Shown in pieces: positions 5,464 through 8,390 of a DNA stretch of 8,390 bases. Made by a program: the position numbers and the translations under genes. How positions within the stretch are numbered: position 1 is the stretch's first letter; every line of letters starts with the position of its first letter. Source of the DNA: Chloroflexota bacterium (GTDB lineage: Bacteria > Chloroflexota > Anaerolineae > Anaerolineales > Villigracilaceae); NCBI GenBank assembly GCA_021823555.1, contig JAKANW010000093.1, positions 1 through 8,390 on the forward strand. The letters run 5' to 3'. The notes beneath the pieces are model-generated. The model searched no databases. It was not told the origin of the DNA and worked only from the letters and a program-made list of their open reading frames with translations.

Positions 5464-5588
5464 CAAAATTCAAACCCCTCTCCCGCCTCCCCCAACCCTA
5501 AAGGGTGCTTCGCAAGGGGGAGAAGCCAAAGCCATCCTGAAACAAAACATTGACTTGGAAAATCGTCAAACCCACCAACCGACCAGCC

Positions 5589-5608
5589 CCCTTCCCATTT
5601 GGGAAGGG
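5589..5608. repeat. Perfect hairpin inside unit B1
   Basis: Arms CCCTTCCCA and TGGGAAGGG (9 bp) with a 2-nt loop. It sits 18 bp before the junction with the DUF488 fragment. There is no T-run, so it is not a normal intrinsic terminator. Confidence 0.6.
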
Positions 5609-5626
5609 CGGGGGGATAGGTCCCTC

Positions 5627-5716
5627 GAAGCCGATCACAATTTCTGCCACCGCCACACATTGACCGAGCATCTGCAAAAGAACAAATCATTCAAGAGAGC
5701 CGTTATTCACCTGTAA
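5627..5716 (+). pseudogene. DUF488 gene 3'-end fragment, copy 1
   Basis: Bases 5627-5716 encode, in frame and with a TAA stop, the last 29 residues of a DUF488 protein (EADHNFCHRHTL ... FKRAVIHL). This matches residues 273-301 of the intact gene at 7175-8080. There is no indel and no premature stop. Of the nine base differences from the intact gene, six codons change silently and only two residues differ (F/L and I/V). Upstream, the frame runs into hairpin sequence rather than the rest of DUF488. A TTG at 5555 could start a 53-codon chimeric frame, but no ribosome site supports it. The fragment is most likely the remnant of a second DUF488 gene cut by recombination, though the coding-style divergence is unusual for a dead fragment. 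Confidence 0.75.
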
Positions 5717-5719
5717 AGA

Positions 5720-5985
5720 CCCCTCTCCCGTCTCCCCCAAGGGGGAGAGGCTAAAACCATCCTGCAATGAAGCCTTGCTTTGGAAAACCGTCCCGCCCAT
5801 CAACCGACCAGCCCCCTTCCCCTTGGGGAAGCGCCGCGCTGACTGCCCGAAGGGCGTGTCGAAGCGGGCGGGGGGATAGGTCCCTCGAAGCCGACCATAA
5901 TTTTTGCCACCGCCACACATTGACCGAGCACTTGCAAAAGAACAAAGCATTCAAGAGAGCCGTTATTCACCTGTCATAAATCCCA
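5720..5985 (+). repeat. Tandem composite repeat unit B2
   Basis: Same architecture as B1, starting 245 bp later: a first hairpin (CTCCCCC, AA, GGGGGAG around 5732-5748), a gapless spacer alignable to B1 with about 14 mismatches in 61 positions, a second hairpin (TTCCCC/GGGGAA) enlarged by an extra GC-rich block at about 5831-5866, the GGGGGGATAGGTCCCTC junction, and a DUF488 3' end from 5887. Confidence 0.7.
5887..5979 (+). pseudogene. DUF488 gene 3'-end fragment, copy 2
   Basis: Encodes EADHNFCHRHTL ... FKRAVIHL followed by one extra Ser codon and TAA, because TGTAA in copy 1 is TGTCATAA here. It joins the hairpin sequence at the same base as copy 1. It differs from copy 1 at six bases, five of them silent (the other is S to A), and from the intact gene at seven. 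An ATG at 5767 opens a 70-codon chimeric frame through the hairpin into this tail. Its upstream part is low-complexity repeat sequence with no homologue in copy 1, so I treat it as a fragment rather than a gene. Confidence 0.75.
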
Positions 5986-6012
5986 AAGAGGGGAAAATGC
6001 CCATCGCCGAGT

Positions 6013-6101
6013 CTCCCCCAAATCCGACGATTCAACTGCTAAATTTACATTCCAAATTTTCATTGTCGTATTTGGGGGAGGTGTCCGAGGGACGGAGGGG
6101 G
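6013..6101. repeat. Palindromic intergenic repeat A2
   Basis: An 11-bp stem, CTCCCCCAAAT (6013-6023) with ATTTGGGGGAG (6070-6080), has a 46-nt A/T-rich loop and is followed by GTGTCCGAGGGACGGAGGGG. It has the same parts as A1, with a longer loop. Together A1 and A2 bracket the two B units. Confidence 0.6.
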
Positions 6102-6174
6102 GTTCTCTCCCCTCCCATCTTCCCTCCCCCGTTTGGATTGACAAATTGAAATGTAGCCCAGAACAAATGTCCGC

Positions 6175-6180
6175 TATAAT
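6175..6180 (+). promoter_or_regulatory. TATAAT -10 element of the first MNT gene (leaderless start)
   Basis: A perfect TATAAT ends 7 bases before the A of the ATG at 6187. Transcription would begin at or within a base or two of the start codon, leaving no room for a ribosome site, and none is present. No -35 at normal spacing is evident; TTGACA at 6138 is 31 bp away. Confidence 0.55.
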
Positions 6181-6186
6181 TCAAGT

Positions 6187-6477
6187 ATGGAAATCGAAAA
6201 ACTCCTCCAGTCTCGAAAAGACCAGATACTAACCATTGCGCGTAAAAACGGGGCTTATGATGTGCGCGTGTTCGGATCGGTAGCTCGCGGCGAAGTACGT
6301 CCCGACAGTGATATTGATTTCCTTGTAAAACTTGAATCGGGGCGGAGTCTGCTTGACCTGGCGCGTTTACTCCGTGAGTTACAGACGTTGCTCGGTCTGC
6401 CTGTGGATGTAGTCACCGAAGCAGGGCTGCGTCCGCGAATCCGCCCGCAGGTGCTGAAGGGTGCGCGTCCACTATGA
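6187..6477 (+). CDS. MNT-type minimal nucleotidyltransferase (MntA-like antitoxin), HepT partner lost
   Basis: A 96-aa protein of the DNA polymerase beta nucleotidyltransferase superfamily. The GSx10DxD active-site motif is complete: G30-S31 in VFGSVARGEVRP, then D42 and D44 in DSDIDFLV. A third acidic residue is D74 in LPVDVV. In studied MntA-HepT pairs this enzyme uses ATP to AMPylate the HepT ribonuclease toxin on a tyrosine and so silences it. The stop codon overlaps the ATG of a HepT-like frame (ATGA at 6474-6477), the normal arrangement, but that partner is reduced to 13 codons. The protein is therefore an orphan unless it acts on the second HepT downstream. It is probably translated from a leaderless mRNA. 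The catalytic residues suggest it is still active. Confidence 0.85.
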   Translation: MEIEKLLQSRKDQILTIARKNGAYDVRVFGSVARGEVRPDSDIDFLVKLESGRSLLDLARLLRELQTLLGLPVDVVTEAGLRPRIRPQVLKGARPL

Positions 6478-6515
6478 GGAGTGAACGCGAACTTGCTCAT
6501 TTCATCGTGCTATAA
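6474..6515 (+). pseudogene. HepT (DUF86) remnant, first 11-13 codons only
   Basis: The frame starts with ATG at 6474, overlapping the MNT stop as in intact MNT-HepT operons. It reads MRSERELAHFI, which resembles the usual HepT beginning, and then hits TAA at 6513. The rest of the toxin, including its RNase motif, is missing. The second MNT unit begins ten bases later, and its TGCTATAAT promoter overlaps the end of the stump. A deletion or recombination that fused two tandem MNT-HepT units is the simplest reading. With so few residues the family call is inference from context. Confidence 0.5.
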
Positions 6516-6516
6516 T
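6508..6516 (+). promoter_or_regulatory. Extended -10 promoter of the MNT-HepT-DUF488 operon (leaderless start)
   Basis: TGCTATAAT (6508-6516) is a perfect extended -10 (TGn plus TATAAT). It ends 8 bases before the A of the ATG at 6525, so the transcript should start essentially at the start codon. No good -35 is visible, which is typical of extended -10 promoters. Confidence 0.6.
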
Positions 6517-6524
6517 TTTTACAG

Positions 6525-6839
6525 ATGAACGTCATGCAAAAAAAGAAATTTCGCATTCCGCGCAAACGAATCAGCGAGTTTTGCCGCCGTTGGGGAGTGG
6601 TGGAATTCTCGTTGTTCGGCTCGGCATTGCGCGCGGACTTTCGACCTGACAGCGACGTAGATGTGCTGGTGACCTTCTCAAAAGAAGCGGAAATCAGCCT
6701 GTTCGACTTGGTGCAAATGAAACTGGATTTGGAAAAAATCTTCCATCGCCCTGTGGACATCATCGAGAAGGACGCACTGGAGAATCCCTTCCGCAAGCAG
6801 GAAATTCTCAGAACCGCGCAGGTGATTTATGCCGCCTGA
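6525..6839 (+). CDS. MNT-type nucleotidyltransferase (MntA-like antitoxin), first gene of MNT-HepT-DUF488 operon
   Basis: A 104-aa minimal nucleotidyltransferase. The GSx10DxD motif is intact: G32-S33 in LFGSALRADFRP, then D44 and D46 in DSDVDVLV. The third carboxylate is D78 in RPVDII. The N-terminus is strongly basic (MQKKKFRIPRKR). By analogy with MntA-HepT modules it should AMPylate, and thereby neutralise, the HepT encoded next. The coding region overlaps the HepT start by 11 bp, so the two are translationally coupled. It is clearly diverged from the MNT upstream at 6187, so the two are not a recent duplication. A second ATG at 6534 is possible; 6525 is preferred because it sits where the transcript is expected to begin. 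Confidence 0.87.
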   Translation: MNVMQKKKFRIPRKRISEFCRRWGVVEFSLFGSALRADFRPDSDVDVLVTFSKEAEISLFDLVQMKLDLEKIFHRPVDIIEKDALENPFRKQEILRTAQVIYAA

Positions 6840-7170
6840 CGAGAGGGATATGTCTTATCTATGGGATATGCAGAAATACGCACTGGAAATCACGGAAATC
6901 ATCAAGGGCGTTCCGCACGCAAAGTTTATCGAGAACAAAACAATTCGCTATGCAATTGAGCGATTGCTTTTGATCGTCGGTGAAGCGGCAAACCACGTTT
7001 CCAAAGGATTTCAGGACCAACACCCAGAAATCGAATGGGCGCAGATCATCGGCTTGCGGAATATTCTGGCGCATGAGTACGGCGAAGTGAAAATGGACAA
7101 GATTTATCTCGCTGCCACAAAAGCCGTCCCTGCGCTGTTGGAAAATTTGAAGCCGCTGATTACAGAGTAA
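6829..7170 (+). CDS. HepT-like ribonuclease toxin (DUF86), partner of the MNT
   Basis: A 113-aa, mostly helical protein of the HepT/DUF86 (HEPN) family. The RNase signature Rx4HxY is intact at residues 77-84 (R77, H82, Y84 in RNILAHEY). An upstream conserved segment RYAIERLLLIVGEAANHVS (40-58) is typical of the family. In known members the toxin cuts RNA, reported for tRNA, and the tyrosine of this motif is the site that MntA AMPylates; both parts of that control are present here. The ATG at 6829 lies inside the end of the MNT gene (11-bp overlap), with AGGTGA just upstream. The next gene, DUF488, starts 4 bp after the stop, so the toxin sits in the middle of a three-gene operon. Confidence 0.9.
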   Translation: MPPDERDMSYLWDMQKYALEITEIIKGVPHAKFIENKTIRYAIERLLLIVGEAANHVSKGFQDQHPEIEWAQIIGLRNILAHEYGEVKMDKIYLAATKAVPALLENLKPLITE

Positions 7171-7174
7171 CACC

Positions 7175-8080
7175 ATGTACTACCGCAGAAAAATCCTCCT
7201 TGCCTTGATCGAAGTTTTTGGCGACAGTCTCCCAAACACGGACTGTGAAAAGCTTCTATTTAACTTCTGCCAGCAGACAGGCAAGAATCACTACGACTTT
7301 TTCCCCTACAAGTACGGACCGTTCAGTTTCCTCTCGTATTACGACAAGCGGAGAATGATTGATTTAGGTCTTCTCAAAAAAGCGGACGATTTCCAACTCG
7401 ACACAAAACATTCCTACTTAAACGAACTCACCCCAGCGGACAAAACCGCCCTGCTGAAATTCAAATCGCAAATCGGCGATTTACGCGGGGACAAACTCGT
7501 CAAGAAAATCTACCGTGATTTTCCCCAATACGCCTCGCGGAGCAAAATCGCGGGCAGACATTTCACCGCAGACGAAATCAATCAACTTCAATTCGCATGG
7601 AACACAGACACCAAGCCTGGCGTATTCTCCATCGGCTACGAAGGCTTGACCATTGACTCGTTCCTGAACAAACTTATCGCCAACAACATCACCGTCGTCG
7701 TGGACGTTCGCAACAACCCGCAATCTATGAAGTATGGATTTTCCAAGAAGAGTTTCAAACAATATATCGAAAGCGCAGGGCTTGTCCTGAGCCGCGCCGA
7801 AGGGATGAAATATATTCACATCCCCGAACTCGGAATTCCATCCTCCATGCGCAAGGGACTTGGCGAAAGCGTTTCGCACAAAAGCTTATTCAAAGCGTAT
7901 GAAAGCAAACTTTTACCAAACCACGAAACTGAAATCAAGCAACTAATTGACCTGACCAACCAAAACGAGCGCATTGCGCTGGTTTGTTTTGAAGCTGACC
8001 ATAATCTTTGCCATCGCCACACATTGACCGAGCATTTGCAAAAGAACAAATCATTCAAGAGAGCCGTTGTTCACTTGTAA
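7175..8080 (+). CDS. DUF488 protein with N-terminal winged-helix-like extension, third gene of the MNT-HepT operon
   Basis: A 301-aa protein. Residues 150-301 are DUF488: VFSIGYEGLTIDSFL (150-164), the core VVVDVRNNPQS (174-184), YIHIPELGIP (213-222) and the terminal CFEADHNLCHR (271-281) with its Cys-His-Arg signature. Residues 1-75 (KILLALIEVF, KLLFNFCQQT, then YDFFPYKYGPFSF and DKRRMIDLGLL) look like a winged-helix domain reminiscent of Panacea/SocA-type antitoxin domains; that resemblance is my inference. DUF488 function is not established; the conserved Cys and His suggest an enzyme or a metal or nucleic-acid site. It starts 4 bp after the HepT stop with no strong ribosome site, implying coupled translation. 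Its last 29 codons are duplicated twice upstream (5627, 5887). No intrinsic terminator follows. Confidence 0.85.
   Translation: MYYRRKILLALIEVFGDSLPNTDCEKLLFNFCQQTGKNHYDFFPYKYGPFSFLSYYDKRRMIDLGLLKKADDFQLDTKHSYLNELTPADKTALLKFKSQIGDLRGDKLVKKIYRDFPQYASRSKIAGRHFTADEINQLQFAWNTDTKPGVFSIGYEGLTIDSFLNKLIANNITVVVDVRNNPQSMKYGFSKKSFKQYIESAGLVLSRAEGMKYIHIPELGIPSSMRKGLGESVSHKSLFKAYESKLLPNHETEIKQLIDLTNQNERIALVCFEADHNLCHRHTLTEHLQKNKSFKRAVVHL
7991..8080 (+). repeat. Repeated DUF488 tail, copy 3 (inside the intact gene)
   Basis: The 90-bp 3' end of the DUF488 gene (residues 273-301 plus stop) is the third, and only complete-gene, copy of the sequence at 5627-5716 and 5887-5979. All are in the same orientation. 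Confidence 0.75.
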
Positions 8081-8104
8081 ATCCACAGTTTGAATAACCA
8101 TCAC

Positions 8105-8300
8105 TCAACCAACTCTCTTGTCCTTTGTGGAAAACTCCCGCAACAACTTTTGTACTTCATCAACTCCATTCAATAATGGATGTTCTAATCTCAATTGTTC
8201 TAGTTCCTCGATTTCGTCGTTCATATTTGCCAAGGGTCTGGTTACTTTCAATCCATGTTTATATGCTTCTAACGCATCATCAATATTTTTCGGCTCATGA
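8105..8300 (-). pseudogene. 3' remnant of an unidentified gene, cut at its 5' side by the insertion sequence
   Basis: The minus strand is open from about 8314 to a TGA at 8107-8105 and encodes THEPKNIDDALEAYKHGLK, VTRPLANMNDEIEELEQL, RLEHPLLNGV and DEVQKLLREFSTKDKRVG. It is highly charged and probably helical. There is no ATG, GTG or ribosome site at its beginning; the first candidates lie well inside. Reading back past about 8300 it enters sequence that appears to belong to the insertion element and then hits a stop. I take it as the C-terminal end (about 65 residues) of a gene whose 5' part was separated by that insertion. The family is not recognised. The right boundary is approximate. Confidence 0.5.
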
Positions 8301-8390
8301 GTAGTTTCAAGGAGCTACCCAAAAACTGGTAAGATGAAGACATGTTGAATATCCAAATCAAAAATCTCCTTGACGACAAGAAATGTTACG
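8300..8390 (+). mobile_element. Left end of a probable IS1595-type insertion sequence (runs off window)
   Basis: The stretch 8300-8341 (GTAGTTTCAAGGAGCTAC and following) lies between the broken minus-strand gene and the start of a transposase-like frame at 8342. It contains GTAG...CTAC complementarity and is a candidate terminal inverted repeat. The other end and the target duplication are outside the window, so the exact boundary is a guess. Confidence 0.4.
8342..8390 (+). CDS. Transposase N-terminus, IS1595-like (partial, 3' end outside window)
   Basis: Sixteen codons are visible: MLNIQIKNLLDDKKCY. This resembles the start of IS1595-type transposases, which read L-LLDD-KCY followed by a VRxLRWPDGVxCPHC zinc-binding segment; that part would lie just right of the window. 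Such enzymes carry a zinc ribbon and a DDE-type catalytic domain and move the element by cut-and-paste. A TAAGAT ends 7 bases before the A of the ATG (8330-8335), so the gene may be expressed from a leaderless transcript like the MNT genes. The call rests on a short match to remembered sequences. Confidence 0.45.
   Translation, partial: MLNIQIKNLLDDKKCY

Follow-up and report, generated by a model that had tools for sequence, protein, structure and literature searches.

Two orphan DUF488 gene ends upstream of an intact DUF488 gene

The window analyzed here, an 8,390-nucleotide stretch of contig JAKANW010000093.1 (GenBank assembly GCA_021823555.1) from a Chloroflexota bacterium of the Villigracilaceae, carries an intact DUF488 gene encoding 301 amino acids (7175..8080) and, upstream of it, two orphan copies of the 3′ end of such a gene (5627..5716 and 5887..5979), termed orphan tails below. 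Each orphan tail directly follows a copy of a two-hairpin intergenic repeat, and genes of toxin-antitoxin (TA) type lie between the second tail and the intact gene; all of these features are on the forward strand. The reading preferred here, to which a probability of approximately 0.6 is assigned, is that deletion of DUF488 (PADLOC PDC-M19A) copies left the two orphan tails behind as relics in a repeat-rich island of defence and TA genes.

A translated alignment of the three copies revealed that the same peptide, EADHN...HL, is encoded at 5627-5716, 5887-5979 and 7991-8080 without indels, as the original prediction had it. Orphan tail 1 comprises codons 273-301 plus the stop codon, and the open 301-codon gene ends in the third tail. 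Tail 2 required a correction, being 93 nucleotides (nt) long and ending HLS-stop, an ending shared by the intact DUF488 gene at the related locus L004 (loci and genomes of relatives are cited by L and G numbers, respectively). The substitution counts first given were reproduced: 5 of the 6 differences between tails 1 and 2 (87 nt compared) are silent, and between tails 1 and 3 there are 6 codons changed silently and 2 amino-acid replacements (F>L and I>V). Tails 2 and 3 show 7 differences, 4 silent and 3 replacing. If 25-30% of changes are assumed to be silent under neutrality, the 5:1 ratio has a binomial P of 0.005-0.011, and neutral change is indeed a poor fit. No damage was seen in either orphan tail of the window, and tail 2 also closes a mechanically called 70-codon open reading frame starting at 5767.

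The sequences to the left of the two tails are more diverged than the tails themselves. Units 1 and 2 show 15 differences over the 60 positions of the spacer between the hairpins (earlier put at ∼14 of 61) and 18 over the 97-nt repeat block, compared with 6 differences over the 87 positions of the tail (Fisher P = 0.003 and 0.027, respectively). The join itself, GGGGGGATAGGTCCCTC followed directly by GAAGCC, is shared by both orphan tails and is found again, with a single change, at L003.

Hairpin repeats and the joins

The repeat that precedes tail 1, designated type A, occupies 5474..5626 and consists of two hairpins ∼60 nt apart with the right end GGGGGGATAGGTC, followed by CCTC. The second copy (5719..5886) has the same right end and an extra 35-nt insertion at 5831-5865. 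The unit 5474-5716 gave 50 matches over 10 of 12 relatives' genomes, matches to the tail alone being counted in, and the hairpin repeats are dispersed and intergenic in these genomes. In being G+C-rich, dispersed, intergenic and hairpin-forming they resemble repetitive extragenic palindromic (REP) and other palindromic intergenic repeats, but they differ in being larger, two-hairpin units. With intact genes counted, the 90-nt tail was matched in 9 of the 12 relatives' genomes, in 12 of 152 genomes of the family and in 17 of 400 genomes of the order, 7 of the last 17 over 20-26 nt only. A match to the junction in G147 was dismissed as a chance match without the tail.

The fragments were inventoried by comparing the whole DUF488 gene with 27 loci by BLAST, leaving aside intact genes, the duplicates L064, L065 and L069, L021 (cut by a contig end) and L105 (a divergent homologue); a 3′ end was scored as kept if the match reached position 893 or beyond of 909. 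Matches to gene positions 598-650 represent a palindromic insert rather than DUF488 relics and were discarded. Eighteen fragments were found in 9 loci, of which 16 retain the 3′ end (4 in L077; 3 each in L020 and L063; 2 in the window; 1 each in L003, L078, L079 and L108), 2 have the 5′ end only (L003 and L005) and none is internal only. Detection bias toward a conserved 3′ end was considered and rejected, as the DUF488 3′ end is no better conserved than other parts of the gene. Four of the 16 also hold the first codons of the gene, fused to approximately codon 223 (two each in L020 and L077, from 2 genomes), and in the window's intact gene ATCCTCC lies at both ends of the deletion form that gives this fusion.

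Two orphan 5′ ends were observed, at L003:8274-8332, where a few bases separate it from the stop codon of a preceding untyped gene, and at L005:9361-9471, just before a BrnT gene. Within one of the fused L020 relics (L020:2284-3735) sits an insertion that has inverted ends (CTAGTCACCTGACAGTT) and carries a DDE transposase.

The joins are fixed on one side only. On the repeat side, 9 of 12 joins lie −3 to +8 nt from the right end of a type-A or type-B repeat, as against 192 of 17,409 noncoding positions (1.1%) in the same loci; this sample comprises 12 fragments, the four fused ones being left out, and counted by independent class the figure is 4 of 6. Type-A or type-A-like right ends adjoin three distinct DUF488 breakpoints, and a fourth breakpoint lies next to type B. 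On the gene side, the breakpoints fall at approximately codons 223, 273, 275, 278, 283, 287 and 288. The proposal that a gene end fused at a fixed base reflects a specific process, and that the same junction should recur in relatives, is therefore supported in part: the repeat end is a recurrent breakpoint, but the position on the gene side is not fixed. The outcomes named at the outset as contrary to the original ideas, random junction positions or frameshifts and stops at neutral rates, were likewise borne out only in part.

Type-A-like right ends are also present ≤130 nt upstream of the start codon in 3 of 12 intact genes (L006, L007 and L010, by eye), and a sequence related to the type-A right end lies upstream of the intact gene in L008 (by eye). 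Given that some intact genes have the repeat just upstream, a deletion of ∼0.9 kb extending from the repeat edge into the gene would create the join.

Right flanks and proposed exchange through the tail

The left join ATAGGTCCCTCGAAGCC occurs twice in the window, in L003 with one change, and in G010, and this one left join carries four right flanks. Tail 1 is followed by a type-A repeat. Tail 2 is followed by a region with a type-B repeat (5974..6106; TCTCCCCCAAATCC...GGGGGAGGTGTCC...GGAGGGGGGTTCT) whose homology to the sequence just 3′ of the intact L004 gene is seen in an alignment over 5974-6175 (155 of 188 bases identical). The right flank of the G010 tail is like that of the intact L005 gene (154 of 196), and that of the L003 tail is the start of the PDC-M19B gene, as in L009 (35 of 46, mainly over the first 34 nt). 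Two right flanks thus match intact-gene flanks clearly and one does so over ∼30 bases, a pattern indicative of recombination through the tail. A simple tandem duplication of the repeat together with its tail would not suffice as an explanation because tails 1 and 2 end differently (HL and HLS) and have different right flanks. These alignments would be best explained if the join arose once and flanks were later exchanged by way of the tail. Of the possibilities raised at the outset, descent of the tails from working DUF488 genes and recombination with them is accordingly retained as the best reading, the right flanks being common to intact genes and the endings of tails 1 and 2 being different.

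The tail residues may also indicate which genes the relics came from. Threonine is present at tail codon 13 in 10 of 12 orphan tails, in 1 of 12 intact genes and in 6 of 120 full-length proteins among the matches listed, the window's own included. Because this residue is also found in those listed full-length proteins, the orphan tails probably derive from a threonine-codon-13 branch of the DUF488 family that includes the window's own gene.

The intact DUF488 gene and its palindromic insert

The window's DUF488 protein matches PF04343 (1.1e-22) and PF22751 in Pfam, and PADLOC assigns it to PDC-M19A (PDLC04505, E 1.5e-97 over residues 1-301); it is a probable phage-defence gene. Its dN/dS against six relatives is 0.06-0.11, and the intact gene is under purifying constraint. 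A protein search returned 21 loci, 13 from Chloroflexota and 8 from Bacteroidota (36-39% identity in the latter), and the relatives of the window locus are Anaerolineales-type Chloroflexota. Among phage records, DUF488 matches were found in 7, all from Gordonia, with 32% identity over half of the protein. No match was obtained in viral contigs with two exact patterns (join and tail), in plasmids with 5474-5979 or, by sequence, among solved structures at E 0.01, and a literature search for PDC-M19 gave no paper.

The PDC-M19 candidate of PADLOC pairs M19A, the DUF488 protein, with M19B. Gene 2 of L001 matches PDC-M19B (2.9e-111), and DNA matches and flanks place an M19B partner directly 3′ of DUF488 in L001, L002 and L006-L011. 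The window differs in having no DNA match to PDC-M19B, the sequence ending 310 nt past the DUF488 gene, and in that DUF488 begins instead 4 nt after the stop of a HepT-like gene. Orphan fragments of the PDC-M19B 3′ region were noted at L005:15140-15241 and L010:16380-16439; in L005, DUF488 is separated from the M19B fragment by a D12 methylase gene, a gene for an HNH-domain protein and further genes. By eye, the 3′ flank of the window's intact gene (8081-8390) resembles the flank of a short tail relic in L079 (G141) and may contain the end of a minus-strand gene.

The intact gene also contains an in-frame insert of ∼24 bp (7779..7804) encoding LVLSRAEG, a member of a dispersed palindromic repeat family with at least 21 matches in 14 of 152 genomes of the family. 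Among the 120 homologues listed, the commonest length is 293 amino acids (78 of 120); others have inserts of their own, some similar and some different (EAPPFLGG in P0006 and P0021, HLHRTAFGAVQV in L003). A report on Rickettsia palindromic elements describes a palindromic repeat inserted in frame within a gene (PMC1950309), as is the case for this insert. The Rickettsia elements belong to another phylum, and the likeness, one of arrangement, bears on the insert, not on the tails.

Neighbouring genes and leaders

Between tail 2 and the intact gene lie two MNT-type nucleotidyltransferase genes, at 6187..6477 (PF01909; PADLOC PDC-S09) and at 6525..6839 (PF01909; an MntA-like antitoxin candidate), and a HepT-like RNase toxin candidate at 6829..7170 (PF01934). 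The Pfam matches for MNT and HepT are clear; the scores against the curated cut-off of 60 are 47.6 and 43.2 for MntA and 37.1 for HepT. The leader of the first MNT gene (6129..6180) is 72-76% alike to the DUF488 leaders of L001, L006, L008 and L010, compared with just 59% and 49% for the leaders of related MNT genes in L003 and L004, respectively. Similar leaders also precede other genes.

Whole or fragmentary DUF488 genes start a few bases after the preceding stop codon in the window, L004, L005, L003:8274 and L020. The preceding gene is HepT-like in the window, has a HepT-like match in L004 and lies next to BrnT in L005; several of the preceding genes in relatives are untyped. Island genes of relatives typed against Pfam include MNT, HEPN, AbiEii, BrnT, D12 methylase, DUF559 and Bro-N types, and in several genomes orphan tails were again met between neighbouring TA or defence genes. 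Pseudogene relics of this kind, truncated gene copies among TA and defence-type genes, are known from defence islands and TA clusters; the present ones are distinct in being mostly the 3′ ends of one gene and in mostly abutting the right end of a hairpin repeat. No integrase was found among 28 proteins typed against Pfam, a subset of the open reading frames drawn from three sets (8, 10 and 10), and the one mobile gene seen among them is the DDE transposase within the L020 relic. The arrangement suggests that tandem TA-DUF488 units may have been rearranged by recombination.

Origin of the orphan tails

If the tails are relics, their formation would have involved a deletion that extended from the repeat edge and removed the leader and codons 1-272; slippage stimulated by the hairpins may have caused it. 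Homologous recombination with intact DUF488 genes would then have spread the join and converted the tail. Descent from, and exchange with, working genes would account for the mostly silent differences, the silent bias then being inherited, and would also account for a tail more similar than the adjoining repeat. A present function of the tails is not required.

Several results weigh against this reading. The right-end patterns used in the join test were written after the joins had been seen, and the repeats of L079 and L108 are type-A-like by eye only, with 1 and 3 matches, respectively, in the repeat search. Proximity to any repeated sequence, with no right end required, was not enriched (6 of 12 versus 258 of 720, P = 0.23) because the islands are full of repeats, and a test of hairpins alone (2 of 12 versus 507 of 3,138) was uninformative because its filter removed two-letter arms such as CCCTTCCC. 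Microhomology was not demonstrated at the window's own join, and G010 carries the same join without a type-A hairpin on its left. Neither do the substitutions reveal decay. Compared with the nearest intact gene, 12 orphan tails show 69 silent and 36 replacing differences, and 12 intact genes compared in the same way show 95 and 35 (Fisher P = 0.25); L077:4568-4508, which has a frameshift, and L078, L079 and L108, which are short or broken, are excluded from these counts. All 12 translated orphan tails are open in frame. A test of private changes was dropped as evidence of decay: the 12 orphan tails gave 2 silent and 9 replacing changes, a result that had looked favourable against a small control (1 and 2), but 12 intact genes gave the same ratio by the same rule (6 and 19, P = 1.0), and the test has no power. 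On this account the probability given to relics was reduced somewhat and that given to constraint raised.

These observations bear on whether the orphan tails are kept by selection, either for their coding sequence or because they belong to an RNA or protein element, as the suggestion of coding constraint had implied. Since the orphan tails are as silent-biased as intact genes (for which all pairs in the tail region, not independent, give 803 silent and 336 replacing differences), the substitutions alone do not speak against such constraint, and the silent excess between tails 1 and 2, the open frames and the 70-codon frame that tail 2 closes are all in keeping with it. Silent bias is, however, equally expected for young or gene-converted relics and for constraint. 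Damage to copies elsewhere counts against constraint, namely a lost stop in L003, an internal stop together with a missing end stop in L078 (by eye) and the frameshift at L077:4568-4508 (by eye). Of 12 orphan tails, 2 have a broken CHR motif, versus 1 of 120 homologous proteins among the matches listed, and breakpoints and upstream sequence are variable. Coding constraint on the tails is thus unlikely, and maintenance of the tails by selection of either kind is considered highly improbable.

Two other explanations assign the joins to mobile elements. According to one, elements integrate at the end of DUF488, which would serve as an attachment site or 3′-end cassette, and leave gene-restoring copies of the tail, so that the tails stay coding-like. 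The recurrence of tails at TA and defence gene boundaries in several genomes and the mostly silent differences would suit such a process, but the gene-side breakpoint varies over approximately codons 223-288 with no constant crossover at the 5′ boundary of the tail, the 28 typed proteins include the L020 transposase as sole mobile gene and no integrase, in the window both orphan tails precede the intact gene and some tails are broken; this part of the original prediction is not upheld, and there is very little likelihood that it is correct. According to the other, the type-A and type-B repeats are themselves mobile and make one-ended adjacent deletions on moving, the fixed repeat end being the signature of a transposase acting in trans. 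Such movement would be consistent with the dispersal of the repeats and with the three breakpoints at type-A or type-A-like right ends and the fourth at type B, but no transposase for the repeats has been identified, nor was any search for one made. Moreover, some intact genes already have a type-A-like end upstream, so that no new repeat insertion is needed, and repeat mobility appears doubtful as the source of the joins. Loss of DUF488 copies by deletion from the repeat edge, followed by exchange with intact genes, remains the preferred account.

Implications for defence islands

The window provides a worked case in which gene fragments look selected, their differences being mostly silent, and yet origin from, and exchange with, working genes suffices. 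In a more speculative extension, which we rate as improbable, the DUF488 gene and its relics would act as the homology anchor of an integrase-free cassette array, in which TA modules sit between a DUF488-type leader and the DUF488 start, and tandem module-DUF488 units form, swap modules and shed DUF488 bodies when the retained starts and tails recombine. If so, shared gene ends in defence islands would mark integrase-free module swapping, a signature that could be searched for in many genomes.

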